42,295 nucleotides of DNA from a virus, in the IMG/VR virus record IMGVR_UViG_3300044966_000796, positions 1 through 42,295 of that record; one strand, given 5' to 3'. This document shows, piece by piece, positions 1,631 to 39,443 of the stretch; positions within the stretch are counted from its first letter, which is position 1; each line of letters starts with the position of its first letter. Position numbers and translations under genes: made by a program. The notes beneath the pieces were generated by a model. It was not told where the DNA came from, made no database searches, and worked only from the letters and a program-made list of their open reading frames with translations.

Positions 1631-3064
1631 TTATCTCCTATTCGCATAAGGGTTGTTGTTATTTTTTGTACTACTTCCCGCAGGTCTTTTAGAAGCGGGT
1701 CGTGTCGGAAGAACCTTGAAAGGATTTACAGGTTCAGATTCAGATTCAGATCTAGGTCTAGGAGTTATTGGAGGCTCTTCTGATCTATAAATATCATCTT
1801 TTGGATCGATTGTAGGATATCTATCCTTAGACTTTGTATCTTTTTTAAGTGGAATTGGGTTGCCGTTACGATCTCTTAATAATTCACCTTTTTGATCAAG
1901 CATATATTTACCTGATTTTATCATTTCTTTTTCTTTTTCAACAATTGAATTGGCTTTATCATTTAAGTCATCTCTATATTTTTCAAGTTGTGTCAACGCC
2001 GACAATCCTGTTACTGACTTGTCAGCCTTTTTTTCAAGTTCTCCCATTTGTGCTTTTAATTCTGATATTTTTTTTGTTGCATCGGCTATTTTTTCCTGTT
2101 TAGTTTTAGTCCTGTACCACCTGTAGCCGAATTGCTTCCATTCTATATAATCGTTTTTATCGTTATATTCTAGATCTTTAATGTCTTTCCAAGCCACTTG
2201 CTCATCTCTTGTTACTGTTGACGCAAATGATCCAATCCAATCAAGAGGATTATTAATCAATTCATTATGGGTCATTTGTTTAAACAAATAATTAACAGCA
2301 AGTTTAGCTTTCTTTGGTTGAGTAGTTATGTATTTATCATTAATATATTTTGGATCTAATGGAACATAGTTTTGAACAAAATCATTCTTGTAATCAATAT
2401 CTGCATCTAACGGATTTGGGGTTATTTTTCTGTCTCTGGAATAAAGATCAGATATTTTTTTTGCTTGAAGTGTCATGTTCATTTGATCTTTATCAATCAA
2501 TCCTTTAATTTTGTTTTGCAATTGTTTTACAGTTAGCCGGGCATCTGCAAGTTTTTCGGTAGCTGTTTTTGGACGAAACCATATATTTGAGCCATAAAGC
2601 CATCCTGCTTTTTGACCATGTATCCAACCTTTTTCAATTCTTATGAATTCAAATTCGTTTGACGCTGCAAGCCATTGTGCCCTAGCATCACTGAAAGGAA
2701 AAAGTGATGCAGCAAGAGTTCTATCAGATAACCATCCAGAACTCCAAGTATCAGCAAAAATATTTGTAAAATTGTAATATTTCTTAATTTTTTCTTTCTT
2801 GTCATCGCTAAGTGGCAAATTGTCTATATCTTCATTTGTTACTGGCAAATAATTCCTTAAAACATTTTCTCTTTCTTTATAGTCTTCTGAATTGGGCTGT
2901 AAACTGCCACTGTTGGTGAATCCCGATGGGCGAATTCCTTTACCAAATTTACTGAAAAGATTACCCAAATGTTTTACAACAAATTCACCTGCTTTAACAA
3001 GTCCCTGATTCTCATTAAGGTATTCTGGATGTTTTTGTTCCAACCATTCTAAAAAATTGTTCAT
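1631..3064 (-). CDS. Propeptide-bearing putative virion protein with internal domain duplication
   Basis: 477 residues with AGAGG 7 bases before the ATG. Residues 1-18 (MNNFLEWLEQKHPEYLNE) are a clear propeptide ending in L-N-E, the T4 gp21-type LxE signal. Two segments, about 66-186 and 226-341, look like copies of one domain: NYLPVTNEDIDN versus NYVPLDPKYIND near their starts and KTATEKLADARLTVKQL versus KTKQEKIADATKKISEL near their ends. A coiled motif L-T-Q-L-E-K-Y-R-D-D-L follows at about 357-367. The last ~80 residues are Pro/Ser/Lys-rich. It heads the 3064-to-1 run. No family recognised. Confidence 0.85.
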   Translation of the reverse strand: MNNFLEWLEQKHPEYLNENQGLVKAGEFVVKHLGNLFSKFGKGIRPSGFTNSGSLQPNSEDYKERENVLRNYLPVTNEDIDNLPLSDDKKEKIKKYYNFTNIFADTWSSGWLSDRTLAASLFPFSDARAQWLAASNEFEFIRIEKGWIHGQKAGWLYGSNIWFRPKTATEKLADARLTVKQLQNKIKGLIDKDQMNMTLQAKKISDLYSRDRKITPNPLDADIDYKNDFVQNYVPLDPKYINDKYITTQPKKAKLAVNYLFKQMTHNELINNPLDWIGSFASTVTRDEQVAWKDIKDLEYNDKNDYIEWKQFGYRWYRTKTKQEKIADATKKISELKAQMGELEKKADKSVTGLSALTQLEKYRDDLNDKANSIVEKEKEMIKSGKYMLDQKGELLRDRNGNPIPLKKDTKSKDRYPTIDPKDDIYRSEEPPITPRPRSESESEPVNPFKVLPTRPASKRPAGSSTKNNNNPYANRR

Positions 3065-4515: not shown

Positions 4516-5161
4516 ATTGGTCCCTTAACCTTTCTATACACTTTTTTGTTATCTGCTGGATGCGTTGTCTTGTGACTCCGAGTTCATCAGCAATACTCTG
4601 AAAGCTTCTTTCATTCAAATAGTGGTCTATGACTATTTGCCTATGTTCAACTGGCAAAATATTGAAGTTGACTGAAAACACAACTTCTTCCTTTTCTTTT
4701 CTAAGAGTCGAATGTTTGGCTTTACTAATTACTTTGTCGTTAATTGTAATCAATTTGTAATTATTTTTTTTCCTTTTGTTTTTTCTGAAATAGACTTCGT
4801 ACATTCTTCTGAAAAACGATCTATAGAAGTAGGTCATAAATAATACTTCACCGGGGATGAAGTATTTCTGGCAACTGCAATAAACATGCAAAGCAATGTT
4901 TTTAGTTTCTTCTAAATCTAATTTAATTTTATATTTTTCTTTGAACCTGCTGGCTAATTTTCTGGAGAAGTACGTTGTCATTTTGAATATGTCTTTTTTA
5001 GGAAACTCTAATCCTTTGGCATCTGGATTTAAGTTTCTACGATTTGTTTCTTCTTGAGCAATACGAAGAGAATATTTTTTGTTTTCTCTTCCTATCTTGA
5101 TGTCTACACAATCATTTGTTGTATAGACATATCCATCCTTGGTTTTAGTGTACCACATCAT
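4505..5161 (-). CDS. Sigma70-family factor with region 4 helix-turn-helix
   Basis: 218 residues. The C-terminus is a good sigma70 region 4: LPVEHRQIVIDHYL, then RSFQSIADELGVTRQRIQQI as the DNA-contacting helix-turn-helix, then the K..IERLRDQ helix. Residues 55-125 (KLASRFKEKYKIKLDLEE..YRSFFRRMYEVYFRKNKR) may be a divergent region 2. It begins at ATG 5161 overlapping the upstream stop (ATGA type), so translation is probably coupled. By analogy with T4 gp55 it could direct late transcription; that role is inferred. Confidence 0.75.
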   Translation of the reverse strand: MMWYTKTKDGYVYTTNDCVDIKIGRENKKYSLRIAQEETNRRNLNPDAKGLEFPKKDIFKMTTYFSRKLASRFKEKYKIKLDLEETKNIALHVYCSCQKYFIPGEVLFMTYFYRSFFRRMYEVYFRKNKRKKNNYKLITINDKVISKAKHSTLRKEKEEVVFSVNFNILPVEHRQIVIDHYLNERSFQSIADELGVTRQRIQQITKKCIERLRDQFEE

Positions 5162-5379
5162 TGATCCAATGCTGCAAAAAAGGAAGTCTTGTGTGACCAG
5201 TTCTGATTTTTACTGAACAAAGTGCTACGACGATAGATATTTTTCCAACATGTGGAAATATATGTCCAATTTATTGCTATGTTAAAAACAGTTGACTGGT
5301 TTAATGAACCAAAATCATAAGAACAACCTGATGTAAGCCAAGCTGTATCTTTTGGAATATTTTGATACTTGTTAATCAT
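5158..5379 (-). CDS. Small W/S/C-containing protein, distant member of the array family
   Basis: 73 residues from the ATG at 5379, which overlaps the stop of the upstream gene as ATGA and has CGGAG upstream; a longer reading frame would start inside the upstream gene. Sequence is rich in W, S, N, C and Y (TAWLTSGCSYDFGSLNQST, NWTYISTCWKNIYRR) with no hydrophobic segment. Composition, size and coupled organisation recall the 6.9-11.2 kb array, but the conserved MI[LFIM][KR] start is only partly present (MINK), so membership is tentative. Confidence 0.6.
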   Translation of the reverse strand: MINKYQNIPKDTAWLTSGCSYDFGSLNQSTVFNIAINWTYISTCWKNIYRRSTLFSKNQNWSHKTSFFAALDQ

Positions 5380-6142: not shown

Positions 6143-6469
6143 ATGAAAAACTTTTATGAATGGTTAGAAGAACGAGATGCAGAAATGCTTAATGAGGCTA
6201 AGAAGCCTTATAAGGGCTACAATTCAAAGAAAAACCATCCAGAAGGTGGATTGAAACCATCTTATGCTAAGAAACTTGGCATTCATGCTGGCATTGAGAC
6301 CAAACGTGAAGCTGAACGCAAGGGCGGCGTTAAGAAGATGTCAAAGAAAACTCAAGCAAGAAGAAAATCATTTTGTGCAAGGATGTGTAAAGCTGGTACA
6401 GAAAAAAGTAGAAACGATCCAAATAGCAAACAAAGAGCAGCGTTAAGAGTTTGGAAGTGCAAGTGCTAA
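6143..6469 (+). CDS. Basic propeptide-bearing protein, RKSFCARM family
   Basis: 108 residues, strongly basic. Residues 1-18 (MKNFYEWLEERDAEMLNE) are among the best propeptide matches, ending L-N-E with cleavage expected before A-K-K-P. The mature part contains HPEGGLKPSYAKKLGIHAG, then K-K-T-Q-A-R-R-K-S-F-C-A-R-M-C and ends R-V-W-K-C-K-C. This RKSFCARM-type domain (DUF5872/DUF6321-like, from memory) occurs in T4-like phages and giant viruses. A basic, Cys-containing packaged protein could bind DNA inside the head; that is inferred. Confidence 0.8.
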   Translation: MKNFYEWLEERDAEMLNEAKKPYKGYNSKKNHPEGGLKPSYAKKLGIHAGIETKREAERKGGVKKMSKKTQARRKSFCARMCKAGTEKSRNDPNSKQRAALRVWKCKC

Positions 6470-6504: not shown

Positions 6505-6912
6505 ATGTTAGTATGCATATGCACCAAATGTAAATTGCAAAAACCTTCTGATTTGGTTCACTTCCCCCCTCACAATAAAAAGAAAAATGGTTTAGATAGT
6601 TGGTGCAGAGTTTGTAGAGCAAATTACAGAAGTGAAATAAATAGAGGCAAATTTAGAGGGCAACTATCTGATGATGAAGTTAAAGAATTAAAAAAACAAG
6701 ATAAGTGTGATATATGCGGCGAAAATGAGTTTGCAGGGTCGAGAAACAATAAACATTTGGGTAAACTTTATTCATTGGTTATGGATCATAATCACGAAAA
6801 TGAAAAATTCAGAGGAATGCTTTGCAGTCATTGCAACAGAGGTCTTGGAAATTTCAAAGATAATATTGAAATTTTAGAACAAGCAATTTTATATTTAAAA
6901 AAACATCTTTAA
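6505..6912 (+). CDS. Endonuclease VII-type HNH nuclease
   Basis: 135 residues with AAGGGGG 7 bases before the ATG. The N-terminus has a C-x-x-C pair and a second W-C-R-V-C pair. The C-terminal part carries the recombination endonuclease VII signature: CDICGE, then MDHNHE..FRGMLCSHCNRGLGN and a closing helix. The DHxH and zinc-binding cysteines are intact. In T4 this family resolves branched DNA (gp49); small free-standing copies in phages are often homing endonucleases. Its plus-strand position at the edge of a minus-strand array fits a mobile insertion, but either role is possible. Confidence 0.85.
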   Translation: MLVCICTKCKLQKPSDLVHFPPHNKKKNGLDSWCRVCRANYRSEINRGKFRGQLSDDEVKELKKQDKCDICGENEFAGSRNNKHLGKLYSLVMDHNHENEKFRGMLCSHCNRGLGNFKDNIEILEQAILYLKKHL

Positions 6913-6925
6913 GAGTATGGAAGTG

Positions 6926-7111
6926 CTAAACTTGAGTAATCCAAAAACTATAAAAGTTATAATTTTTCCAGCAGAAGGAAAGATTCATTCGTGAATTAGT
7001 TCTTGCATTAACATGACTATTTTTTGTAAAAATCTTACAATAAAGAATGCCTTTGTTTGTGTAAGAGCTATCAAGGTTCCACGAACGAGATGAAGCCTGC
7101 GATCTAAACAT
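6926..7111 (-). CDS. W/S-rich array protein, most downstream member
   Basis: 61 residues; ATG one base after the stop of the 7113 gene, with AAGGG 10 bases upstream formed by that gene's last codons. Starts M-F-R-S-Q-A-S-S-R-S-W, matching the M-[IF]-[LFIR]-[KR] opening of the family, and contains RMNLSFCWKNYNFYSFW. It has no hydrophobic segment or known domain. It ends convergently with the endonuclease VII-like gene, 14 bases away. Confidence 0.55.
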   Translation of the reverse strand: MFRSQASSRSWNLDSSYTNKGILYCKIFTKNSHVNARTNSRMNLSFCWKNYNFYSFWITQV

Positions 7112-7112
7112 T

Positions 7113-7313
7113 TTATGATTTCCCTTTCAGATAGTAGAATACTTCTGAACTTGACTGGTGTAGCAACCACATTTGACAAGAACAATTTTTCCATATGTAT
7201 CTTGAAAATGGTGGATAATATCTTGGTTTAGAATAATGTTGATTTCCCCAAAGGGAGGAGGATTGTCTAGCAATCCACAATGATCTAAAAAAATTAGGAC
7301 TGTTAATAAACAT
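7113..7313 (-). CDS. W/S-rich array protein
   Basis: 66 residues if started at ATG 7313, which follows the stop of the 58-residue upstream gene by 4 bases; a longer in-frame reading to 7460 would overlap that gene almost completely. The sequence begins MFINSPNFFRSLWIARQSSS and has further W/S/Y/C-rich stretches (SRYIWKNCSCQMWLLHQSSS). The Shine-Dalgarno site is weak (GGAG about 18 bases away), so reinitiation after the upstream stop is plausible. Confidence 0.5.
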   Translation of the reverse strand: MFINSPNFFRSLWIARQSSSLWGNQHYSKPRYYPPFSRYIWKNCSCQMWLLHQSSSEVFYYLKGKS

Positions 7314-7317
7314 GGCT

Positions 7318-7494
7318 TTAAATATTTTTACTCCAACATCTGCACGGAGCTTGATAACCCATAGAAAACGGAGATCTGTGCCTTGACCAAGGCAAATCAT
7401 TTTTTGTAGACCAAAAACGGTGTGCAGTCCAATGTGTAGAAAAACACAGAAGACTAGCAAAAGACCGAAAATTAAGAGTCTGAAGAGTTCTCAT
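7318..7494 (-). CDS. W/S-rich array protein, 58 residues
   Basis: A 58-codon frame starting 7 bases after the methyltransferase stop, with CAGGGG 8 bases before the ATG. It opens MRTLQTLNFRSFASLLCFST and contains repeated W every few residues (H-W, F-W, P-W, C-W). Its end, C-R-C-W-S-K-N-I, is nearly the same as the C-terminus of the array gene at 9728 (S-W-S-K-N-I), supporting both frame and homology. Confidence 0.6.
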   Translation of the reverse strand: MRTLQTLNFRSFASLLCFSTHWTAHRFWSTKNDLPWSRHRSPFSMGYQAPCRCWSKNI

Positions 7495-7500
7495 GTCTGC

Positions 7501-8079
7501 TTACCCCTGTTGGTATTTCTTGTGTTTAACAATAACAAATGAAGCATCGTAATCTACTGGATTACTTTCTCTTTTATATGTTAGACTGAATCTGTTGTCA
7601 ATATAAAAACAATTGTGTTTTCTACAAAGTTCTTTCAAATCTTTTTCTGGATAAGTTACGTCTTCGATTATCATCAACCCATTTGGTTTCAACAATTGAA
7701 CATAATTAGTCAAAAGAAAATCATGTGATGCATAAGAATGCATACTATCATCCAATATGATATCAAATTCACCATGATCTTGCATTAATGTGTTTATAAA
7801 TTCTTTTTTAAATGCATCTGTTTCAATAAGGAAAACGCATGGTCCGAACTTATGCACAAGTTTTGAAAAACTTACATCAACAGCAATTATTTTTGAATCA
7901 GGATGGAAAAAATCTTCAAAAGATTTTGTAGATCCACCTGAATATATCCCAATTTCTAAAAAATTAACTAATTTTTGCTCATATTGGTTCAAAAGCGTTT
8001 CATATATATATCCATAATTGTGACAACTGTTCTTGTCGGTCTCTCTATATAACGATAGATAATGATTGTAACCTTTCAT
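7501..8079 (-). CDS. Class I SAM-dependent methyltransferase
   Basis: 192 residues with TGAGGAG 6 bases before the ATG. Motif I is FLEIGIYSGGSTKSF at about 40-54, followed by I-I-A-V-D-V (acidic residue that binds the ribose of SAM), then FDIILDDSMHSY and L-K-P-N-G-L-M-I-I-E-D. This resembles sugar or small-molecule O-methyltransferases rather than DNA methylases (no NPPY/DPPY). It is embedded in the W/S-rich gene array, with members on both sides, so those peptides or the glycan genes elsewhere are candidate substrates; this is a guess. Confidence 0.8.
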   Translation of the reverse strand: MKGYNHYLSLYRETDKNSCHNYGYIYETLLNQYEQKLVNFLEIGIYSGGSTKSFEDFFHPDSKIIAVDVSFSKLVHKFGPCVFLIETDAFKKEFINTLMQDHGEFDIILDDSMHSYASHDFLLTNYVQLLKPNGLMIIEDVTYPEKDLKELCRKHNCFYIDNRFSLTYKRESNPVDYDASFVIVKHKKYQQG

Positions 8080-8089
8080 GTTTCACTCC

Positions 8090-8272
8090 TCAATAAATTA
8101 CTTGCGGTTCTTCTTCTTTAATCTTCCAACATTTGGAAGAATCAGGAAAGCTTACCGGACACACCATCTTCCATTCTAAGCTAATTCCTTGTTCGTTTCT
8201 GCCAAATGCATAATGTGTCATGCGTCTGTTCCAGCATTTTGACATTTTAATGTAATATATGTTTCTTGTCAT
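8090..8272 (-). CDS. Small C/W-containing array protein
   Basis: 60 residues; ATG 8272 overlaps the upstream stop as ATGA, with AGGAG 12 bases before. It has two S-K-C-W motifs (near residues 11 and 47) with R/H/E-rich sequence between, and lacks the extreme Ser content of the core members. No domain recognised. Followed after 10 bases by the methyltransferase. Confidence 0.55.
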   Translation of the reverse strand: MTRNIYYIKMSKCWNRRMTHYAFGRNEQGISLEWKMVCPVSFPDSSKCWKIKEEEPQVIY

Positions 8273-8478
8273 GCTGTTTGTTCGCTCCTATTCCAATGCA
8301 TGGAAAAGGCATGTCTTTTGGTCCAATGAAAGGAACAAGGTTTGAACATAGACCAAGAACAAAACCAACTCATTGACCATAAATCGGATGTATTTATCTG
8401 TCTTCTGAAATAAACAGAACTTGACCTGCCAGCAGACCAGCAGTAATTATCTGATACACTTTTAATACACACGTTCAT
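8269..8478 (-). CDS. W/S/C-rich array protein
   Basis: 69 residues, starting inside the end of the 8462 gene with GAGGAAAG upstream of the ATG. Contains NYCWSAGRSSSVYF and D-L-W-S-M-S-W-F-C-S-W-S-M-F, with further H-W and W-N. No signal peptide or membrane helix. W residues recur about every 4-8 positions as in the other array members. Confidence 0.55.
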   Translation of the reverse strand: MNVCIKSVSDNYCWSAGRSSSVYFRRQINTSDLWSMSWFCSWSMFKPCSFHWTKRHAFSMHWNRSEQTA

Positions 8479-8674
8479 TTTCTTTCCTCAACAAACAACT
8501 ACTTCTAAAACTATTGTTCCAATGAACAGATCTGTTTCTACCGTGTACATGTGCATCATGAAATTGTAAACGACCATGATCAGATCTGCACAATACATCA
8601 AAACTAAATGTGATAAAGGAATAAAATCCTTTAAAAGGGGCACATGACATCACATTGTTTCTTTTAAAGATCAT
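8462..8674 (-). CDS. Small array protein with MIFK start
   Basis: 70 residues; ATG 8674 overlaps the upstream stop (TAATG). The opening M-I-F-K-R-N-N matches the conserved array start. The rest is F/S/H/R-rich with VHWNNSFRSSCLL near the end; Trp content is low, so it is a diverged member at best. Its last codons (LRKENERVY) contain the GAGGAAAG that serves the next gene. Confidence 0.5.
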   Translation of the reverse strand: MIFKRNNVMSCAPFKGFYSFITFSFDVLCRSDHGRLQFHDAHVHGRNRSVHWNNSFRSSCLLRKENERVY

Positions 8675-8907
8675 TATTCAAAGCTCCTCTGCCAGACTTT
8701 GGAATCTGGTGTTTGCTCATAGGTCCATTCACACCCATTTGCTTCGATCAGGATCACATGAGCAATGCTTTCCAATTCAGTCTTGTATTGATTAGCCTCA
8801 GCATGTCTTAAAGTTTCCTCGGCTTTTTCGAGAGCCTCATGTCGATTGTTTGCAATCACATCAATTGTGTTTTTTTGCGTCGATGTAATCTTTACAGTGT
8901 ACTTCAT
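8674..8907 (-). CDS. Conserved-looking small hypothetical protein, not a W/S-rich member
   Basis: 77 residues with AAAGGAG 8 bases before the ATG. It has an ordinary soluble composition: a beta-strand start (MKYTVKITSTQKNTIDVIA), a charged helix (ALEKAEETLRHAEANQY) and a second strand region. It looks like a small alpha/beta phage protein of unknown role, sitting between array members, which suggests the array genes spread around it. Confidence 0.7.
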   Translation of the reverse strand: MKYTVKITSTQKNTIDVIANNRHEALEKAEETLRHAEANQYKTELESIAHVILIEANGCEWTYEQTPDSKVWQRSFE

Positions 8908-8921
8908 ATCGCTAACTCCTT

Positions 8922-9080
8922 TTAAAGATCATATCCTTCAAAAGTCATATCGTCCCAAGTGCGAGAAGCGCAAGCAAATTGGACAAACGACCTACTAGAT
9001 GAACCATCACAGGCACCAAAGCAAAAAACAAATCTGCCGTTCAATCTACTCACCCAGAGAGAATTTATTCTGAATATCAT
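8922..9080 (-). CDS. Array protein, 52 residues
   Basis: A 52-codon frame whose ATG (9080) overlaps the stop of the 9077 gene as ATGA. Its first 13 bases are identical to those of that gene (ATGATATTCAGAA), giving MIFRINSLWVSRLNGRFVF versus M-I-F-R-T-S-W-S. The middle is C/S/F-rich (CFGACDGSSSRSFVQFACAS). The end T-W-D-D-M-T-F-E-G-Y-D-L is unlike the other members. It stops 14 bases before the 8907 gene and helps supply its ribosome site. Confidence 0.55.
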   Translation of the reverse strand: MIFRINSLWVSRLNGRFVFCFGACDGSSSRSFVQFACASRTWDDMTFEGYDL

Positions 9081-9316
9081 TCTTGATAACCAAATAAATC
9101 ACGAGCTTCACCAGAATTATAATAAGAATCAGAAACATGAGAACAAAAACACGAAGACCTAGTCAGAGACCCAGTCCTAGATATAGTCCACTTACTAATG
9201 AATTGCCAAATCCTAGAACTGTTCCAAAACCAAGTCTTATTCCAAGACGAATTAGAATACCAATTCTTCTTCCAAGATGTAGACCCATTCTTAGACCAAG
9301 ATGTTCTGAATATCAT
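9077..9316 (-). CDS. W/S/N-rich array protein
   Basis: 79 residues. ATG 9316 overlaps the upstream stop as ATGA, with GTGGAG 8 bases before. Opens MIFRTSWSKNGSTSWKKNWY and continues with W every 4-6 residues (SSWNKTWFWNSSRIW), then a Ser/Cys segment and a charged tail. The W/S pattern comes from 6- and 12-base repeats whose reverse complement is CCAAGA-like. Other frames are open over part of this region but have no coherent starts and ribosome sites. Confidence 0.55.
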   Translation of the reverse strand: MIFRTSWSKNGSTSWKKNWYSNSSWNKTWFWNSSRIWQFISKWTISRTGSLTRSSCFCSHVSDSYYNSGEARDLFGYQE

Positions 9317-9516
9317 ATTTCATCTCCACTAAACGAAGACCAAGAATCACCGTTAAACCAACAACAAGACTCACACATAGTTCTGGACCAAAAATTAGAT
9401 CTGCATGTAGACTTCAAATTCGACCAAGAACTAGATCCAAACCAAGACCTAGACCTATGAGACCAAAATTTGGTCCAACATCTAGAAGGTTTATCACAAA
9501 ATGCTTTTAATGTCAT
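9313..9516 (-). CDS. W/S/C-rich array protein
   Basis: 67 residues from ATG 9516, which overlaps the upstream stop as ATGA; GGAGGAG lies just before and is encoded by the upstream W-R-R codons. Opens MTLKAFCDKPSRCWTKFW and has SRSWFGSSSWSNLKSTC and C-E-S-C-C-W-F. A longer start at 9531 is unlikely because it would sit on the ribosome site. Confidence 0.55.
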   Translation of the reverse strand: MTLKAFCDKPSRCWTKFWSHRSRSWFGSSSWSNLKSTCRSNFWSRTMCESCCWFNGDSWSSFSGDEI

Positions 9517-9727
9517 ATGCTTCTCCTCCAAGCCATAGAATAAGACGAAGACTTAGACCAAGAATTACACCGAGACCAATAATTAAACCAAACCGAATAA
9601 CAAGACCAATCACAATTAGAAGACCAAGACTTAGACCAAGTATTATTCCAAGACTTAGACCAAGAATTAGACCAGTCGCTTTTCCCAGCCCAACATTGAG
9701 TCTGGGAAAAGACATTAGATTTAAGAA

Positions 9728-9731
<4 letters not shown>
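9513..9731 (-). CDS. W/S-rich array protein built on a 12-base repeat
   Basis: 72 residues. ATG 9731 overlaps the upstream stop as ATGA, with TGGAG upstream. Opens MILKSNVFSQTQCWAGKSDW; residues 20-65 repeat W-S-x-S at a four-residue period, matching the 12-base DNA repeat at 9540-9672. It ends M-A-W-R-R-S-I, whose TGGAGGAGA codons act as the next gene's Shine-Dalgarno site. Function unknown. Confidence 0.6.
9540..9672. repeat. Degenerate 12-base tandem repeat
   Basis: On the plus strand about ten imperfect 12-mers such as AGACTTAGACCA, AGAATTAGACCA and ATAATTAAACCA follow each other, most ending CCA (Trp codon TGG on the minus strand). Looser 6- and 12-base CCA periodicity continues through roughly 9170-9480 and 9750-10010. 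The repeat stays in phase with the minus-strand W/S frame. Confidence 0.75.
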
Positions 9732-9906
<175 letters not shown>

Positions 9907-9910
<4 letters not shown>

Positions 9911-10044
9911 ATACTTTTCCTCCAAGACTTAGAAAAAGACCAAGGAATAGACCAACACCAAGACCTAGAATTATTCCACCAAGACCAAGACCCCCATCGG
10001 TTGTCAGCAAAAGTTCTGCAACAAGATTCTCCAGTTTTGAACAT
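9907..10044 (-). CDS. W/S-rich array protein, 45 residues
   Basis: A 45-codon frame with AAGGTG 5 bases before ATG 10044, 11 bases after the upstream stop; its own stop overlaps the next ATG as ATGA. Opens MFKTGESCCRTFADNRWGSW, followed by W at nearly every third or fourth residue, ending S-K-S-W-R-K-S-I, whose codons provide GGAGG for the next gene. Confidence 0.55.
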
Positions 10045-10055
10045 ATGTCACCTTA

Positions 10056-10268
10056 TCAGCCTTCCGACACCCATCCTGCTTCGCCTTCTTCTGTATTATA
10101 TACATTCTGGTTAATATAGGAGGTAGCCTCTTCTGCTGTCAAGAACAATTTATAATTGTTAGATGTAGCAAAATCTTCAGCCTGATTGAGATTTGGGAAA
10201 ACATAATCCAACAATCGAAAGTCATTAAAGTTCTGACCCGATAAAAAGTAATATTTATTCATTTGCAT
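10056..10268 (-). CDS. Small hypothetical protein
   Basis: 70 residues from ATG 10268, which overlaps the upstream stop (TGATG); ATG 10262 is an alternative. Sequence MQMNKYYFLSGQNFNDFRLL..NLNQAEDFATSNNYKLFL..TAEEATSYINQN has an ordinary soluble composition with helical segments, unlike the W/S-rich genes that follow. No family recognised. Confidence 0.65.
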   Translation of the reverse strand: MQMNKYYFLSGQNFNDFRLLDYVFPNLNQAEDFATSNNYKLFLTAEEATSYINQNVYNTEEGEAGWVSEG

Positions 10269-10654
10269 CACCACCAGCTAGTATAAAAAACATAAAGTCC
10301 ATCACCTATTGCTCGTTTAGCCTGATAAATGAAATCAATATCATTTTCAATTGATTTACTGTCAGGAGGATTATTACCAAAGAAAAACCCTTTTGTATTA
10401 GGAAGATTACCTTCTCTAACATTCTTCTCCAAATTTTCTAAATCTTCTAAAGTAAGCATAACATAATCACAATTGAACTCTCCTGTCCCACTCTTTTTGA
10501 AGAATAGTTCTTTCATCCATCCATGAAGATCATGATGCTTTCTCCAGTAAAATAGCTCATTCTTATCAAGTCCTTCTGTAAAGACTGGATTGATATCTTT
10601 CAATTCAACAACATCTTCTTTTTTAACTGAATAAGCAAACATATCAAGTCCCAT
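10268..10654 (-). CDS. MGLDM-type conserved phage protein
   Basis: 128 residues with TAGGAG 6 bases before the ATG. Begins M-G-L-D-M-F-A-Y, the hallmark of a widespread phage protein family of unknown function (usually MGLDMY..), followed by FYWRKHHDLHGWMKELFF and a C-terminal FIYQAKRAIGDGLYVFYTSWW, also typical of it. Length is normal for the family. Lies in the promoter-10868 operon between W/S-rich genes. Confidence 0.75.
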   Translation of the reverse strand: MGLDMFAYSVKKEDVVELKDINPVFTEGLDKNELFYWRKHHDLHGWMKELFFKKSGTGEFNCDYVMLTLEDLENLEKNVREGNLPNTKGFFFGNNPPDSKSIENDIDFIYQAKRAIGDGLYVFYTSWW

Positions 10655-10663
10655 GAGATACTC

Positions 10664-10849
10664 CTATATTAAACCATCACCATCCCAATACATAGACCAA
10701 CGCCATGGCATCGACCTAGTTAATTTTTTTCCAAAAATCCACCATGTAGAACGAACATGCCTAAAAGAATCAATATCTCTCCAGTTTGACATCATTCTCG
10801 ATCCAGACCATTCTCTGGATTTAATAAATATATTTGATCTAATGATCAT
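10664..10849 (-). CDS. W/S/R-rich array protein, first gene behind the array promoter
   Basis: 61 residues, ATG 10849 with AGAGGTG 7 bases before and a consensus promoter 19 bases upstream. Opens MIIRSNIFIKSREWSGSR, matching the MILKSNVF type start. The body has STWWIFGKK and M-P-W-R-W-S-M-Y-W. Here the other frames are not well open, so it supports the W/S reading frame of the repetitive members. Confidence 0.6.
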   Translation of the reverse strand: MIIRSNIFIKSREWSGSRMMSNWRDIDSFRHVRSTWWIFGKKLTRSMPWRWSMYWDGDGLI

Positions 10850-10867
10850 GTCATCACCTCTGCCCTA

Positions 10868-10896
10868 ATTATACCATAAAAACGGCAAAAAATCAA
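10868..10896 (-). promoter_or_regulatory. sigma70-type promoter driving the array operon
   Basis: Minus-strand TTGATT (10896-10891), 17-bp spacer, TATAAT (10873-10868), between two W/S-rich genes. Confidence 0.8.
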
Positions 10897-10901
10897 TGTG
10901 A

Positions 10902-11063
10902 TCATTCATTAAATGACCAACATGCAGAACAAATGTATTCATTAAGGACAGAAAAAATTCCAAATCCAGAGTAAGAACAATGATTGTTCCATGACCTAGA
11001 AATTGATATATCTCTAGACCAACACCAATTAGTATGATTACAAGAATTTGATCTAAGAATCAT
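10902..11063 (-). CDS. W/S/C-rich array protein, tandem copy of the 11053 gene
   Basis: 53 residues from ATG 11063, inside the last codons of the preceding copy. Opens MILRSNSCNHTNWCWSRD and shares ISISRSWNNHCSYSGFGIFS with the upstream gene's ISISRSWNDDYSFSGFTIFS, then Y-I-C-S-A-C-W-S-F-N-E. The DNA is a diverged duplication of about 160 bases. A longer in-frame start to 11147 would overlap the previous gene and is less likely. Confidence 0.6.
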   Translation of the reverse strand: MILRSNSCNHTNWCWSRDISISRSWNNHCSYSGFGIFSVLNEYICSACWSFNE

Positions 11064-11223
11064 TATAAGCCCAACACCACCCAGAACAGATTTGACCACG
11101 ATGGTGTTCAGAAAAAATGGTAAAACCAGAGAAAGAATAATCATCATTCCATGATCTAGAAATTGATATATTTCTAAACCAAAAATGATATATGTGATTG
11201 TTAGAATTTATTCTAGTAATCAT
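11053..11223 (-). CDS. W/S/C-rich array protein, first tandem copy
   Basis: 56 residues from ATG 11223, 20 bases after the stop of the 463-residue propeptide protein. Opens MITRINSNNHIYHFWFRN and ends I-C-S-G-W-C-W-A-Y-N-D-S. The start region lies in a 26-base sequence that is exactly repeated inside the upstream gene at 11783-11808. No clear Shine-Dalgarno site, so translation may rely on coupling. Confidence 0.5.
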   Translation of the reverse strand: MITRINSNNHIYHFWFRNISISRSWNDDYSFSGFTIFSEHHRGQICSGWCWAYNDS

Positions 11224-12662: not shown

Positions 12663-12995
12663 TTATTCAAACTTTGTAACATATCCACAACCAAACTTTT
12701 CGTGTAAATTTTTGCACCATTTAATTACTTCTTCAGGTTGCAAATCTTTACTCATAGTAACTACGAAGTGCTGATCGTCTTTGTCTCTGAAGTATCCATC
12801 AAAACTATATCCATCAGGAATGATTCTTTCTGGTGTACTATATTTACTGGTTCTCCAAAATTTAATAATAACAGAAAACTTTCTACCAATACTATCTTTT
12901 TCTGAATAACTCCAACATTTATCATGTTTATCATTTAAGTGATCATATGTTTTCTCAGCTTTAAATCCAGCGGAGATGATGTCTTGTTCTGTCAT
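12663..12995 (-). CDS. Small hypothetical protein coupled to a W/S-rich gene
   Basis: 110 residues from ATG 12995, overlapping the upstream stop as ATGA, with GGAAGAAG 5 bases before. Sequence MTEQDIISAGFKAEKTYDHL, then CWSYSEKDSIGRKFSVIIKF and DGYFRDKDDQHFVVTMSKDL, ending in a helix (PEEVIKWCKNLHEKFG). It reads as a soluble alpha/beta protein. A longer frame upstream runs through the W/S-rich gene and is not used. Confidence 0.7.
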   Translation of the reverse strand: MTEQDIISAGFKAEKTYDHLNDKHDKCWSYSEKDSIGRKFSVIIKFWRTSKYSTPERIIPDGYSFDGYFRDKDDQHFVVTMSKDLQPEEVIKWCKNLHEKFGCGYVTKFE

Positions 12996-13204
12996 GATTC
13001 TTCTTCCCAACAAGATGACCACAATGAGTTCATTAATCCACAACAAGATAAATTCCATGTAGTAAATTTTGACCATCCAGATTCACAAACATATATTTTT
13101 TTACGATAATTCCAACCAGAAAAACCTTTACCATTAAAAACGCATCTATGATTACTATTGCTCCAAATTGAAGAGCAACTAAATGTGTTCAGCTTCATGA
13201 TCAT
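12992..13204 (-). CDS. W/S/C-rich protein, isolated family member
   Basis: 70 residues, ATG 13204 with AGAGGG 7 bases before and its own promoter at 13228. Opens MIMKLNTFSCSSIWSNSN, matching the array start, then NGKGFSGWNYRKKIYVC, E-S-G-W-S-K-F-T-T-W, and ends L-W-S-S-C-W-E-E-E-S, with the last W-E-E-E codons forming the next ribosome site. It is not repetitive at the DNA level, so it is good evidence that the family encodes protein. Confidence 0.65.
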   Translation of the reverse strand: MIMKLNTFSCSSIWSNSNHRCVFNGKGFSGWNYRKKIYVCESGWSKFTTWNLSCCGLMNSLWSSCWEEES

Positions 13205-13227
13205 AGAATAACCCTCTTTGTAATTAA

Positions 13228-13255
13228 ATTATAACAAAAAGGATATTAGCGTCAA
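13228..13255 (-). promoter_or_regulatory. sigma70-type promoter for the 13204 gene
   Basis: Minus-strand TTGACG (13255-13250), 16-bp spacer, TATAAT (13233-13228). Confidence 0.8.
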
Positions 13256-13257
13256 AC

Positions 13258-13292
13258 AAAAAACCACCTGTATTATTAGTACAGGTGGTTTT
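13258..13292 (-). terminator. Rho-independent terminator after the 13311 gene
   Basis: Minus-strand AAAACCACCTGTA pairs with TACAGGTGGTTTT around a 7-base loop, continuing into six T. It lies 19 bases after the stop and abuts the promoter of the next operon. Confidence 0.85.
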
Positions 13293-13310
13293 CAGAAACT
13301 TGTTGATACA

Positions 13311-13625
13311 TCAATCATCTAAATTAAAATAAGCCCAATTTGGCTGATAAATCAGCTCTACTGCATTCAAACTGATGATTACAGAACTACCAATTGGATC
13401 TTCCGAGTTAGGCTTTTCGGAACTAGAAGCCCCAGAAGACTCTACAGCACGAGCTTGGGCAAGGACGCAGCAATCGTCAGTAACCTTGCTCAAGATGCCT
13501 CTGTAGTTGAATCTAGCGCATAGAATGGCAACTGGTTGACCAATATACTCATTCATAATGGTAGCCATGTTACTACCAGTTGACTTCTCTGGTGATACAC
13601 GGGAAAAAGTCCTTTTAACAGCCAT
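13311..13625 (-). CDS. Small beta-rich protein, possibly Sm/Hfq-like
   Basis: 104 residues with AAGGAG 8 bases before the ATG. Residues 25-55 (EYIGQPVAILCARFNYRGIL, SKVTDDCCVLAQA) and a later V-I-I-S-L-N-A-V-E-L-I recall the G-x-V-x-V ... G-x-L-x-x-x-D ... layout of Sm-fold RNA-binding barrels, with a low-complexity Ser/Glu loop between. This is a by-eye fold guess only. Second gene of a two-gene operon with 13657. Confidence 0.6.
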   Translation of the reverse strand: MAVKRTFSRVSPEKSTGSNMATIMNEYIGQPVAILCARFNYRGILSKVTDDCCVLAQARAVESSGASSSEKPNSEDPIGSSVIISLNAVELIYQPNWAYFNLDD

Positions 13626-14127: not shown

Positions 14128-14916
14128 ATGCCAACGTGTAAAAAATGTCAAAGTCACTTTCCAAATCATATCAAGATAGATGGTAAAGATAAAAATCTTA
14201 GTAACAGAAAATATTGTTTAGATTGTTCTCCATTTGGTTCTCATAATACCAAAAAATTAGAAACAGGAAAGATAAAACAAATAATAGAAAATAACGAAAT
14301 AAAAAGAAAATGTATTAAATGTAATGAATATAAATGTGTCAATCATTTTCACGAGATAAAGGGAAAAAGAAAATATTATTCTTATTGCAAAATTTGTTTG
14401 TATGAAATACAAAAAAATAGATGGCTAGATCGCAAAATGGAAGCAATAAAATTAATGGGAGGAAAGTGTGTAATCTGTGGGTATTGCAAAAACTATGCGG
14501 CAATGGAATTTCACCATTTAGATCCATCAGTTAAAGAAATGACATGGGTAAAAGCAAGGGAAATGAAATGGAATAAAACTATTGAAGAAATTAAAAAATG
14601 CGCTCTTCTTTGTGCCAATTGTCACAGAGAAACACACAATCCAGATGCCTCATTGACACAAACAAGAGAAGCTAACCCATTATTAGTTAACACTTTAAAA
14701 CCAACAGGAAATTGTCCAAATTGTCAAACTGATGTTTACAATACGAAACATTGTTCTGTTCAATGTGCTGCTGCAAGTAAAAGAAAAGTTAATCGTCCAA
14801 CAAGAGATGAATTGAAACAACTTTTAGAAAAAAATAATTTTTTACAATTAGGAAAAATGTTTGGTGTTTCAGACAATGCAATCAGAAAATGGGTTAAATT
14901 TTATGATTTAAATTAA
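14128..14916 (+). CDS. HNH homing-type endonuclease
   Basis: 262 residues with CAGGAG 7 bases before the ATG. Three zinc-binding Cys pairs precede the HNH core: CVICGYCKNYAAMEFHHLDP and later CALLCANCHRETH, with the catalytic H-H and N-C-H intact. The C-terminus has another Cys cluster and an HTH-like end (FLQLGKMFGVSDNAIRKWVK) for DNA recognition. A plus-strand gene between minus-strand operons next to a tRNA, as expected of a free-standing homing endonuclease. Confidence 0.85.
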   Translation: MPTCKKCQSHFPNHIKIDGKDKNLSNRKYCLDCSPFGSHNTKKLETGKIKQIIENNEIKRKCIKCNEYKCVNHFHEIKGKRKYYSYCKICLYEIQKNRWLDRKMEAIKLMGGKCVICGYCKNYAAMEFHHLDPSVKEMTWVKAREMKWNKTIEEIKKCALLCANCHRETHNPDASLTQTREANPLLVNTLKPTGNCPNCQTDVYNTKHCSVQCAAASKRKVNRPTRDELKQLLEKNNFLQLGKMFGVSDNAIRKWVKFYDLN

Positions 14917-16039: not shown

Positions 16040-16068
16040 ATTATACCATGTTTGACGACTGATGTCAA
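16040..16068 (-). promoter_or_regulatory. sigma70-type promoter for the 16012 gene
   Basis: Minus-strand TTGACA (16068-16063), 17-bp spacer, TATAAT (16045-16040). Confidence 0.85.
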
Positions 16069-18341
16069 GATATCTTGCCTGTCATGTAATATTCAATAAT
16101 TTTCTTAGTTTTTTCTTCTACTCCAAAAAATATTGCAGGATTATTTTCCCAAAATTTAACCAATCGGTCATAAAAAACCAAACTCTTGTTGCAATGTTTC
16201 TCAATTAACAATTTAAACTTCTGTGGGTCACAACCACATGTTATTGAAAACAAAAATAAGATAGAATTAGATACTTGAGAACATTGTTGCCCAAATTTGT
16301 TTGTTCTTAAGAAACTATAAATATAATCCAACTCATTTGATCTTGACTGATACTGTTCAAAATAACTAATATTTTTACAAAAATATTCCATTTTGTCACA
16401 AAAATCTTGAATTAATAATTTATTGGAAACTTCACATGATTCATACTTCAATTGAGGAAAACAATTACCAGAAGAACGCCAGAAATTGATGACAAATTTA
16501 TCTATTAAACAATCAAGAAAACATGGATTTTCTTCGCAATATTTGTCAAAAGTATTAGCAATATAAGTCTTGTAAGATATGAAACGAATTTTATTCTGTT
16601 TCGTATATCTCCTCATGAACTCTTTGTTCTTTTTAAGATCTTTTATCAAAAGAATTTTATTTGTTTCTGATGTAAATTTATTTGGTAAATGGTTAGACTG
16701 TTTGGTCAAGGATGATATACGTTTTTGTAATTCATCAAGATTTTTGTAGAGCAATATGGTACTTGGAACAATGCTATTTATATCTACGCTTTCAGGACGA
16801 AGATAATGCATTGCTTGATATTCAATGAAGTAAACAGTTCTTTTATCAGTGATGATGTCCTCTATTATATCTTCTTCGCAATTATCATTACTTTTGATAA
16901 ATGTGTTTGAATCAATGTCATATGTGTGCAGAACAATGTTCTTAGCAGTGTTTTTAGCTTTTGATTTAACATTACTTTTATACAATTCTAATGCTGAGCA
17001 TTTTGAAATAAATTTATTATTAATTTTATTGTAATCTTTAAGGATAAAAGCGTATTCTTCTTTTACAACTAAGAATGACACGACATTTCTATTAAGAGAC
17101 TTTGCTTTTCTGTTTACCCAAGACCTGATGGTTTCTTGAGATGCTTTAGTGTCGTTTATCAAAAAGAAAAGTGTTTCTAAATTTGGGTCTTCGCTAAACT
17201 GAAAATCTGTATTAGTAAAAAGTTTGTTTGTGATATTAGAACTATATCTACATATTTTGTAGAAACGACCTATTTCTATTGTTTCGTTATAATAGATTTG
17301 TGGGGTAATGAAGGCATAATCTGATAATGGATTACCATTCCATGTGAACGCATTTGCAGTTGTGAGTCTGTCATTATGGAAATGTTCATCATAAAACTTC
17401 TTACAAATATTCAAAAACAACATTTGGGCATTAATCTTGCTTTCGCATTTGTTTAAGCTTTCTTGAATGGAGCCATAAAACTCATTGTCAACTTTTGTGA
17501 TAAAGTTATTAAGGAATTCAATAGTGCTAGGTGTGTAGGAAATTTGTTCTCTAGAAGGAGTTACTTCGACAGATCTTGGAGGAACATGGAAGCAAATTCC
17601 TTTGGAACAATTTGTGAAATATTGTTTGCTAATTAATGGGTATGCTTGATTAAGTTCTGGATATATTTTTTTGATATCGAGTCTATATCTGACGTTGTTC
17701 ATAACAACCCAAGTGCCAGATTTTTTAGTATTGTCCCAATTAGGACCGTATTTATATTCTGGACTTTCTGTAAAATATTGTAATTTAATGTTGACGATTG
17801 GTCTTATTTTGAAAACATCAAAAATATCTTGTGCTTTATCTTCCCATTCTTTTTGAGAATAGCTAGATAATGGAACAATAATTTCCAAGCCATTCTTTTC
17901 GCTTGTTGGTTCTTCTTTAAGCATAGAAATACTAGGAATACCATCTTTTCGACAGCAATTGTAATAGAATTTCTTACCATTTATGTATGAATTAACATAA
18001 AAGGAATTTGTAATTGCAAATGGACTTTTACATCCAAGTCCAAATGCGCCTGTATAAACTTTGCTTCCTATTTTTGTTGACGAAAAGAATACTGTAAACA
18101 CATCTTCGATTTGATCTGCTTTCAATCCATGTCCAAAATCTCTTATCTTGAAATAACTAAGTGATGATGTAGGAAGTGTGACTTCAAATGGAATTTGTGG
18201 TATACCTGCTTCAGCGTGTGCATCGGCAGCATTGCATGAAAGTTCTCTTATGACTGCTGAAACTTTATCTGAATAGAGATTACTGGCAAGAATATCGAAA
18301 GCCTTTGGACTGCTTTCAATACGAAAATTAAGATCTGACAT
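16065..18341 (-). CDS. rIIA: rIIA-like GHKL ATPase
   Basis: 758 residues from ATG 18341 (GGAG and AAGG lie just upstream; an in-frame upstream ATG at 18386 overlaps the promoter). The N-terminus follows T4 RIIA: S-P-K-A-F-D-I-L-A-S-N-L-Y, N-box RELSCNAADAHAEAG, G1 box R-D-F-G-H-G-L, the FFSSTK segment, lid G-A-F-G-L-G-C-K-S-P-F, and later PPRSVEVTPSREQISY. T4 RIIA is a membrane-associated protein involved in lysis timing and resistance to RexAB exclusion. The C-terminal 400 residues are divergent. No rIIB is visible nearby. Confidence 0.9.
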   Translation of the reverse strand: MSDLNFRIESSPKAFDILASNLYSDKVSAVIRELSCNAADAHAEAGIPQIPFEVTLPTSSLSYFKIRDFGHGLKADQIEDVFTVFFSSTKIGSKVYTGAFGLGCKSPFAITNSFYVNSYINGKKFYYNCCRKDGIPSISMLKEEPTSEKNGLEIIVPLSSYSQKEWEDKAQDIFDVFKIRPIVNIKLQYFTESPEYKYGPNWDNTKKSGTWVVMNNVRYRLDIKKIYPELNQAYPLISKQYFTNCSKGICFHVPPRSVEVTPSREQISYTPSTIEFLNNFITKVDNEFYGSIQESLNKCESKINAQMLFLNICKKFYDEHFHNDRLTTANAFTWNGNPLSDYAFITPQIYYNETIEIGRFYKICRYSSNITNKLFTNTDFQFSEDPNLETLFFLINDTKASQETIRSWVNRKAKSLNRNVVSFLVVKEEYAFILKDYNKINNKFISKCSALELYKSNVKSKAKNTAKNIVLHTYDIDSNTFIKSNDNCEEDIIEDIITDKRTVYFIEYQAMHYLRPESVDINSIVPSTILLYKNLDELQKRISSLTKQSNHLPNKFTSETNKILLIKDLKKNKEFMRRYTKQNKIRFISYKTYIANTFDKYCEENPCFLDCLIDKFVINFWRSSGNCFPQLKYESCEVSNKLLIQDFCDKMEYFCKNISYFEQYQSRSNELDYIYSFLRTNKFGQQCSQVSNSILFLFSITCGCDPQKFKLLIEKHCNKSLVFYDRLVKFWENNPAIFFGVEEKTKKIIEYYMTGKIS

Positions 18342-18376
18342 CCTTGTGCTCCATAAAAATCTGTTTGTACTAAAAA

Positions 18377-18405
18377 ATTGTAACAAACAAACGATCAGAA
18401 GTCAA
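18377..18405 (-). promoter_or_regulatory. sigma70-type promoter for rIIA
   Basis: Minus-strand TTGACT (18405-18400), 17-bp spacer, TACAAT (18382-18377), partly inside the 3' end of the 18395 gene. Confidence 0.8.
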
Positions 18406-19432
18406 TATCTGTTCCTTTGGAATCTGCAATATTTCTTAATATTTTGGTTGGGGATATTATTGTTTCATAAAAATTATGCCATAAAACAACTATTTTCTCA
18501 ATTGATTTATTGACTATGTTTTCTGGCAAGACATTTTCTTCAACAACAGATTTGGATATCATTTCTTTTCTAGAAGAAATCACCTTTGGATTACTGACAA
18601 TTGCGTCAACAAAAACGCCAAATAATTTTATCTGATCACTTGGAATGTTTTTAACCATAAAAGATTCTGGTTCGTTGATTTGCTCTTTGATAATTTCTGC
18701 TACTTCTTGATTGCTCACCTTCATAATGCGTTTAATCACCAAGAACTGTTGAACCATTTGATCAGAGAAAGCTCTAGCTTCGACAAATGACTGATAGTAT
18801 TCGTTGTATGTCGAATTTTCATCATAATATTGTTTAAATCCATGTATGAAACAATCGTGTAAGTGTCTTGCTTCATGATGAATTATTCCAGCCAATGCAA
18901 GTACATCAAGACTTGAGTATTGATGTGGAAGCAAAATAACATTCATTGTTACGAATATTTCACCTGTTCTGGGACTTGTGTCCATTCTTACTTGAAATGT
19001 ACAGACTTTATAATCTAGCACAATAGTACCAGTAGCATTGCCGAAACGATCAATTTTTGGCAAAGAAGAAATGTCATGTCCCAATGCTCTTGCTTTACTG
19101 ATTTCAGACTTTCTTATTTTTTGAATTTCTTTTTTACTCAAATTGTCTACAATCAAAATATTTCCCATTATTGGTTTTTCATATACTAATTTTGTAACAT
19201 TTTGATATGGTCCCATATTGGCTCCATCATGACCAGAAGCATACATTGCAACAATTTGATTTACCATACTAATGTTGGAGTTTTTCTCGCCTAAAGCATG
19301 AGCCATAGCAAAACATTCTTTAAAATTAATAATATCGTTTTGTTCTGGTAGATTTTTAAGCATGACATCGACAGTGTTAGGAATGTCTAAATCACCGGAA
19401 AAAGCTTCCATAAATTCATAAAAGTTTAACAT
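18395..19432 (-). CDS. Propeptide-bearing HExxH metallopeptidase-like protein
   Basis: 345 residues. Begins MLNFYEFMEAFSGDLDIP, a propeptide-like F-Y-E-F start, though the LxE site is not obvious. At about 185-200 it has A-G-I-I-H-H-E-A-R-H-L-H-D: an HExxH zinc-protease motif in a hydrophobic helix, with E in the downstream F-V-E-A-R-A-F region as a possible third ligand. The N-terminal half has beta-rich sequence. ATAAATA lies 4 bases before the ATG and no Shine-Dalgarno site is seen, unlike the neighbouring early-type genes. Packaging into the head is inferred. Confidence 0.75.
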   Translation of the reverse strand: MLNFYEFMEAFSGDLDIPNTVDVMLKNLPEQNDIINFKECFAMAHALGEKNSNISMVNQIVAMYASGHDGANMGPYQNVTKLVYEKPIMGNILIVDNLSKKEIQKIRKSEISKARALGHDISSLPKIDRFGNATGTIVLDYKVCTFQVRMDTSPRTGEIFVTMNVILLPHQYSSLDVLALAGIIHHEARHLHDCFIHGFKQYYDENSTYNEYYQSFVEARAFSDQMVQQFLVIKRIMKVSNQEVAEIIKEQINEPESFMVKNIPSDQIKLFGVFVDAIVSNPKVISSRKEMISKSVVEENVLPENIVNKSIEKIVVLWHNFYETIISPTKILRNIADSKGTDIDF

Positions 19433-38960: not shown

Positions 38961-39443
38961 TCAATATTTTACAAGATGTGCAGAGCCATCACCATGTTCT
39001 GATTCTAATTCATATCCAAATCTTGGATTTTGCAAAATTTGTGCTAAACGAGGATTAACAACCCAAAGTCTTGTATAGACTTTAGCATCTCTCTCATTTT
39101 CTATGGAATCACGTTCTTGTTCACATGCTTTAATCAATTGCATCCCAACCATTTCGTAACCTTGCCATTCTGGATGAACAACAACATCAAAGCTGTATAC
39201 CAATATTTCTTCACCAGTAGAAGAAGAAGCATCATGATCAGCTTGAACATTTGTATAAGCAGCACCTATGACATCTTCATTATCATTCAATGCGACAAAT
39301 GTAAAATCCTTACTACTGTCTATTCTTATGTTGACCATTTTGGCAATAGCCTCAGCTTGTTCAGCTTCTTCCCATTCTTCTGGATCAACATGTTTAATGA
39401 TTACACTTTCTTGCAAATGTAACCATTCCTTAAATACATTCAT
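38961..39443 (-). CDS. Propeptide-bearing GNAT acetyltransferase-like protein
   Basis: 160 residues. MNVFKEWLHLQE-SV is a compact propeptide with L-Q-E. The body follows the GNAT fold: F-T-F-V-A-L-N-D-N-E-D-V-I-G-A-A-Y, then S-F-D-V-V-V-H-P-E-W-Q-G-Y-E-M-V-G-M-Q-L, where VxPxxxGxGxG is degenerate, and a final N-P-R-L-A-Q-I-L-Q-N-P-R-F-G-Y. Acetyl-CoA transfer to host proteins after injection is a possibility, not shown. No Shine-Dalgarno site. Confidence 0.7.
   Translation of the reverse strand: MNVFKEWLHLQESVIIKHVDPEEWEEAEQAEAIAKMVNIRIDSSKDFTFVALNDNEDVIGAAYTNVQADHDASSSTGEEILVYSFDVVVHPEWQGYEMVGMQLIKACEQERDSIENERDAKVYTRLWVVNPRLAQILQNPRFGYELESEHGDGSAHLVKY

Follow-up and report, generated by a model that had tools for sequence, protein, structure and literature searches.

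A phage array of tiny Trp/Ser-rich genes as a probable diverged relative of an Sm-like/mini-protein module

The virus fragment IMGVR_UViG_3300044966_000796 of IMG/VR, 42,295 bp long and called here the window over its whole length, carries on its minus strand, between positions 6926 and 11223, an array of very short genes whose products are rich in tryptophan and serine (W/S genes). The source of the window is apparently a T4-like phage, with an rIIA homologue at 16065-18386. We propose, with a probability of about 45%, that the array is a diverged and multiplied relative of a widespread phage module that combines an Sm-like protein with Ser-alternating mini-proteins, and that it acts by the mechanism outlined below. 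The components of this proposal differ in strength. The identity of the module, an Sm/Lsm-like protein plus one or several mini-proteins made of a constant head and a Ser-alternating low-complexity tail, is very probable; the kinship of the window array with that module is probable, a degree less firmly so; and the mechanism, a multivalent assembly of ribonucleoproteins, is tentative, the odds being somewhat against it. The first-pass annotation, which described the array from the letters of the window, had missed both the gene of the Sm-like partner and the repeat logic, of six bases or two residues, by which the array is linked to a far larger class.

Partner families and the logic of their Ser-alternating tails

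Viral contigs were scanned with a DNA pattern for W-S-x-S-W-S-x-S-W, and matches were obtained in unrelated phages, in arrays of like architecture whose genes join constant heads (MITKRTRWRR, MIILKANEW, MIKKSIYKRNI or MNNAVTGCCK, for example) to Ser-alternating tails, written here as (X-S)n. A common protein of ~100 residues is encoded immediately 5' of the mini-gene at many of these loci. Families of this partner were collected from IMG/VR by the partner sequence alone, blind to the tails. The class-1 partner was found at 366 loci, 79 of which were fetched, and an (X-S)n tract lies directly downstream in 63 of the 69 with enough downstream sequence; most of these mini-genes, with heads like MNAAVLRTGFD, share an ATGA overlap with the partner gene. 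The class-2 partner was found at 120 loci, with a mini-gene directly downstream in 62 of the 71 that could be tested. The two partners are homologous to each other (hhalign probability 94, E 1.2e-7), and in both families the Sm-like gene and the mini-gene that follows it either overlap or are a few bases apart. Over the first 300 nucleotides (nt) downstream of the partner, tracts occur at 3.0 per kb; in the controls, which are the upstream side, the opposite strand and the region beyond 1 kb downstream, they occur at 0.016-0.08 per kb. The loci are not all independent, since some contigs are near-identical. The structural model of the class-1 partner gave only weak structure matches, headed by Sm/Lsm proteins (Z up to 4). 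One of the richest arrays, L039, has a class-2 partner directly upstream. Further short-unit repeat open reading frames, V/A/G- or T/G/P-rich in the frame read, stand 5' of the partner gene in L067, L145 and L089.

Whereas the partner genes total 486 loci in IMG/VR, tblastn searches of INPHARED with one protein per class retrieved them only in records MW202573 and MW202825. Both have a mini-gene next to the partner, entered as a hypothetical protein or left unannotated, and neither record names a host. In GTDB genomes the pattern scan gave, among the matches listed, simple repeats only and no arrays, and neither partner was found in 398 Pseudomonadota genomes, a scan that had no bacterial positive control. 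These data point to a seemingly undescribed two-part system, present in clearly more than a hundred uncultured phages; a literature full-text search of partial coverage returned no paper on a module of Sm-like gene plus mini-gene.

The mini-genes of the partner families shift in length by six-base steps while keeping their composition, and the order of their units is nearly free. Statistics were taken from the tails of 51 class-1 and 59 class-2 genes. Arg, Gly and Trp together occupy X in 93% of class-1 and 90% of class-2 units, each of the three residues being kept near one third, and the net charge of the tail is ~+0.15 per residue. Within a gene, bases 2-6 of the unit are nearly invariant, including base 6, which is mostly a synonymous site: the entropy amounts to ~1.5 bits at base 1, to almost none at bases 4-5 and to ~0.1 (at most about 0.12) at base 6. 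From gene to gene the Ser codon varies among TCG, TCA, TCT and AGC. The succession of W, R and G is close to random, with no clear serial pattern and a slight excess over shuffled tails at lags 2 and 5. Between phages whose flanks are 94-100% identical, tails differ by insertions or deletions of 6, 12, 30 or 48 nt. The simplest reading is that units would be continuously gained, lost and homogenised under selection for a mixture of W, R and G with Ser at alternate positions.

The Sm-like gene of the window and its link to the array

The window has a partner of the class-2 type, a minus-strand gene of 104 residues at 13311-13625, located 106 nt upstream of the outlying W/S mini-gene A (12992-13204, minus strand); the class-1 partner was searched for in the window's own genomes and not found. 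Homology of the gene to class-2 partners was seen by tblastn (E 5e-6 to 0.02) in loci whose retrieval had been based on their tails. Its AlphaFold2 model has a mean predicted local distance difference test score of 71 and about 83-91 in the core. The Sm fold consists of an N-terminal helix and a strongly bent five-stranded sheet. Comparison of the model by Foldseek matched Sm/Lsm proteins at E 2.1e-4 (probability 1.00), and VIA gave Z 10.6 with a root-mean-square deviation of 1.8 over 69 residues, 408 chains having Z of at least 8; all structure matches listed are Sm/Lsm or spliceosome chains. An Sm/Lsm fold is predicted for the protein on the basis of this model. At the sequence level, the match to PF14438 SM-ATX (E 0.022, 15.4 bits) falls below the cut-off of 29.8, and PDB searches with the protein and its profile yielded no convincing match.

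The W/S proteins themselves retain the two-residue Ser register. In the 17 window proteins, Ser-Ser pairs are enriched at lags 2, 4, 6 and 8 (z 3.7, 3.4, 3.5 and 4.5) and depleted at lags 1, 3, 5 and 7 (z -2.9 to -3.9), and Trp-Trp pairs are enriched at lag 6 (z 5.2). In genes E to I, TCT makes up 75% of the Ser codons, as compared with 28% elsewhere. The short head motif M-I-x-[KR]-x-N, drawn up with these sequences in view, is present in 8 of the 17 window proteins and in 16 of 53 class-1 heads, and in none of 186 other ATG-initiated open reading frames; hence the constant start announced for most of the array holds for about half of it. Moreover, in three contigs of the T4-like clade (L438, L439 and L440) two W/S mini-genes, different from those of the window, directly follow the Sm-like gene, and T4-like mini-genes beside that gene have ratios of nonsynonymous to synonymous substitution (dN/dS, or omega) of 0.03-0.21. 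In the 225-kb contig (L439) the Sm-like gene and its mini-genes are located ~45 kb from the main array.

Several observations weigh against this link. A W/S mini-gene is found within 300 nt of the Sm-like gene at only 4 of 10 loci of the T4-like clade, which represent few lineages; in L437, L441 and L442 the mini-gene is 1.3 kb away, and L443-L445 have none. In the window, the intergenic stretch between the Sm-like gene and gene A (13205-13310) contains, on the minus strand, a terminator-like inverted repeat (ACCACCTGTA...TACAGGTGGT, then T6), read from the sequence, and a promoter-like TTGACG-16-TATAAT at 13255-13228, which is a consensus match that does not imply function. The window bodies are not strict (W/R/G)-Ser tails built of NGG-Ser hexamers, as they also use K, N, C and F, and the likeness between the heads of the window and those of the module depends on the short motif. 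A five-gene array (MKMIQKIIRTNRSWSWS...) in which W, S, L, T, F and Y stand at X lies at 1820-2797 of the 113-kb contig L098; no class-2 or window-type partner was found in that contig, and the class-1 motif is absent from the 10 kb that were fetched. Finally, RNA binding, ring formation and interaction between the Sm-like protein and the mini-proteins are predictions. Because the linkage is loose, a terminator-like repeat and a promoter-like site intervene and the bodies are irregular, the array is called a diverged relative of the module and not a strict member of it.

Gene content, selection and turnover in the array

The gene inventory agrees with the first-pass annotation on the architecture of the array: exactly 15 open W/S genes, B to P, run head-to-tail on the minus strand from 11223 down to 6926, and two more lie outside, A (70 residues) and Q (5158-5379, 73 residues), on the same strand. 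Trp, Ser and Cys account for 8.3, 18.5 and 4.8% of the residues of the W/S genes, against 1.5, 6.5 and 1.7% in the other genes of the window. A Shine-Dalgarno-like tetramer precedes 15 of the 17 starts. The ATGA overlaps reported as frequent join six adjacent pairs (E/F, F/G, G/H, H/I, I/J and L/M), and gene Q overlaps in this way the gene preceding it and gene A the one following it. The spacing of one Trp every 4-6 residues, which had been given for the array at large, is a property of genes E to I and does not extend to the remaining ones. Four ordinary genes interrupt the array: a methyltransferase (7501-8079), MKYTVK (8674-8907), one at 10056-10274 and MGLDMF (10268-10654). The last of these resembles, by eye, a gene at 4150-4611 of L125, since both open with MGLD[MQ]..., share a similar central stretch and stand inside mini-gene arrays.

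Comparison of the copies by dN/dS, which the first-pass annotation had proposed as a check, was made on codon alignments of orthologues. In the W/S frame omega is 0.17 for C (10902-11063, 53 residues, a paralogue of B), 0.43 for D (10664-10849, 61 residues), 0.46 for E (9907-10044, 45 residues), 0.44 for J (8922-9080, 52 residues, with the orthologue of L016), 0.23 for K (8462-8674, 70 residues), 0.40 for L (8269-8478, 69 residues) and 0.13 for M (8090-8272, 60 residues), that is, 0.13-0.46 over these seven genes. It reaches 0.63-0.79, on the basis of few changes, for B (11053-11223, 56 residues; orthologues in L003, L007, L011 and L016) and F (9728-9910, 60 residues; orthologues in L007 and L009). 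The pooled value for these nine genes is 0.32, and the W/S frame of the orthologues evolves under purifying selection. The two alternative frames contain stops and have omega mostly near or above 1; a Leu/Gly-rich (GLGLSLGL) coding frame was discarded on these grounds. Since the W/S frame is under purifying selection and the other frames have stops, most W/S genes are real proteins. Gene A is identical in L003 and has no other orthologue, and Q has a single diverged one, in L437 (omega 0.64). Genes G (9513-9731, 72 residues, with a Ser-alternating body like that of F) and I (9077-9316, 79 residues) match paralogues, those of I being its only matches, and H (9313-9516, 67 residues) matches L011 3059-3262 and L016 4059-4250. 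For N (7318-7494, 58 residues), O (7113-7313, 66 residues) and P (6926-7111, 61 residues) an orthologue was found in no relative fetched, and their reality therefore rests on an open frame and on composition.

Related contigs were retrieved first by a neighbour gene and next by the W/S proteins themselves; a whole-family alignment was too variable for scanning. Syntenic arrays are present in seven of these contigs (L003, L004, which is the 225-kb contig, L007, L009, L010, L011 and L014), and the main array of the 225-kb relative forms a single cluster at one contig end. Tail segments have been exchanged among genes, so that the gene at L016 4059-4250 and the D orthologue both have DQWS.MWA.SRSWSWYNSRTESWSW, and in L009 genes B and C are fused into one. 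The first description is thus borne out as to short common heads, bodies that vary and a fast turnover of genes; rapid diversification applies to the turnover of the genes and not to the orthologues, which are under purifying selection (omega 0.03-0.79). The description as an undescribed family of small phage proteins also stands, given that Pfam and PHROG gave no match worthy of the name among the W/S proteins tried and that tblastn of INPHARED with three of them gave none.

Just past the W/S array, on the opposite strand, three relatives have 3-4 tandem paralogous genes (MARLKWTIGITNWDSLEFIQYHAKYFHEFCSDFEFIVYDN...) that are perhaps glycosyltransferase-like (L009 13661-15942, L011 4468-6746 and L014 1861-4945). 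In the window, an endonuclease VII-like gene (PF02945) is found just past gene P on the plus strand (6505-6912); this gene and a Cys-rich, HNH-like open frame at 14128-14916, also on the plus strand, flank the W/S region and are possibly mobile. Elsewhere the window encodes an IMP dehydrogenase/GMP reductase domain protein (36608-37654, minus strand; PF00478, E 1.4e-63). Many otherwise different proteins of the window have in common the start motif F-x-x-[WF]-[LM], as in MNNFLEWLEQ, MKNFYEWLEER, MTNFYHWLKNR, MKFKKWLNEQ and MNVFKEWLHLQ; they are encoded at 319-957, 1028-1627, 1631-3064, 6143-6469, 18395-19432, 35393-36532, 38961-39443 and 41003-41632, and the motif is a possible shared targeting or packaging signal.

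Proposed mechanism, alternatives and known systems

Proteins of the Sm-fold superfamily bind RNA as rings, and Arg, Trp, Gly and Ser are residues typically found in sequences that bind RNA multivalently and form condensates. In the mechanism that we propose, the Sm-like protein would form an RNA-binding ring, and the mini-proteins would be detachable, separately encoded multivalent R/W/S tails able to bind RNA or the ring. Ring and tails together would gather phage or host RNA into ribonucleoprotein clusters during infection. Copy number and tail sequence could drift because only composition would matter, and in the T4-like branch single copies would later have been fixed as specialised small proteins. 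A little short of even is the chance we give to the general proposition that an Sm-like ring and separate, hypervariable (Trp/Arg/Gly)-Ser polymers, selected for composition and not for sequence, form an evolvable device for assembling ribonucleoproteins, elaborated by T4-like phages into an array of ~15 proteins.

The strongest alternative, still an unlikely one, is that the window family is independent of the (X-S)n module, consisting of small W/S-rich proteins (for instance of host takeover) with their own TGGTCT-type slippage, to which the Sm-like gene would be incidentally close. The irregular bodies, the individual conservation of the orthologues and the loose linkage within the clade, with the terminator-like repeat in between, would all suit such a family; the homology of the partner gene to class 2, the two-residue register and fixed-Ser-codon bias common to both sets, and the two different W/S mini-genes that follow the Sm-like gene in L438-L440, at a place which in the 225-kb contig is distant from the main array, speak for kinship. 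Neutral slippage, in which a mutable hexamer repeat would grow beside a conserved gene and be open by chance, would explain the six-base steps in length. It is nevertheless very improbable, given that ~90% of the loci in two divergent partner families have the association, that W, R and G are each near one third with base 6 homogeneous while base 1 is mixed, and that phages preserve the reading frame, its start codon and the link to the partner.

The active part might instead be the RNA (or DNA), in which case the six-base GGTC-type repeats would serve the Sm-like ring as a sponge or multivalent ligand, and the open frame would be a by-product of a repeat RNA protected by translation. The near-invariance of unit bases 2-6 within a gene, extending to the synonymous base 6, speaks for this idea; we consider it improbable, as Ser is kept while its codon differs between genes, the heads carry synonymous differences, the genes are coupled through ATGA and the window-type members are under amino-acid selection. 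Equally improbable is a role of the mini-proteins as membrane-active peptides in lysis, host inhibition or phage exclusion, with the Sm-like protein controlling their RNA. Synthetic Arg-Trp antimicrobial peptides are known, and the cationic Trp/Arg-rich tails resemble them, but the strict alternation of Ser and the one third of Gly do not fit, neither a signal peptide nor a hydrophobic helix is evident by eye, and the members in the window carry less positive charge and are each conserved. The analogy with peptide precursors drawn in the first-pass annotation, according to which the embedded methyltransferase would modify ribosomally made peptides, accounts for a constant head with a variable body and for the presence of that gene in the array; the methyltransferase is missing from the arrays of all relatives fetched and no other maturation enzyme recurs, so the analogy was abandoned as scarcely credible.

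If the Sm-like/mini-protein reading is right, phages possess a two-part RNA-binding assembly in which an Sm-like protein is served by interchangeable low-complexity polypeptides, and in which selection acts on amino-acid composition with near-free order, the repeats varying between near-identical phages. We know of no counterpart of a strictly Ser-alternating, order-free and composition-constrained tail encoded as a separate gene. Diversity-generating retroelements likewise place local hypervariability next to a conserved gene, although by adenine-directed substitution, whereas the module varies by gain, loss and reshuffling of six-base units and by the choice among W, R and G; the six-base-step indels and the reshuffled units, which start with any of the four bases, do not fit such a target, no search for a reverse transcriptase having been made. 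PDB 3by7, a metagenomic protein of putative cyanophage origin, is also a small Sm-like fold and is among the weak class-1 structure matches; it has no sequence match to the window Sm-like protein or its profile.

The nearest precedent for the phage module is that of the aaTR-Sm proteins of Borg elements, in which an Sm fold is combined with tandem-repeat regions predicted to be disordered (PMC9879509). In both cases an extrachromosomal element encodes an Sm-fold protein associated with fast-evolving in-frame tandem repeats. In Borgs the Sm protein carries the repeat as an N-terminal fusion, with units of 4-17 residues, whereas the phage repeat is a separate gene, sometimes in several copies, with a two-residue Ser-alternating unit. 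Among eukaryotic proteins, SmB, SmD1, SmD3 and Lsm4 carry Arg/Gly-rich low-complexity tails, which are thought to assemble ribonucleoprotein clusters, and SR proteins have RS repeats. The phage module resembles them in joining an Sm fold to Arg-rich low complexity and in its RS-like alternation, and differs in that its tail, encoded by phages as a polypeptide of its own, includes Trp and has a hypervariable order. The module would be a split version of what the tails do in eukaryotic Sm/Lsm proteins.

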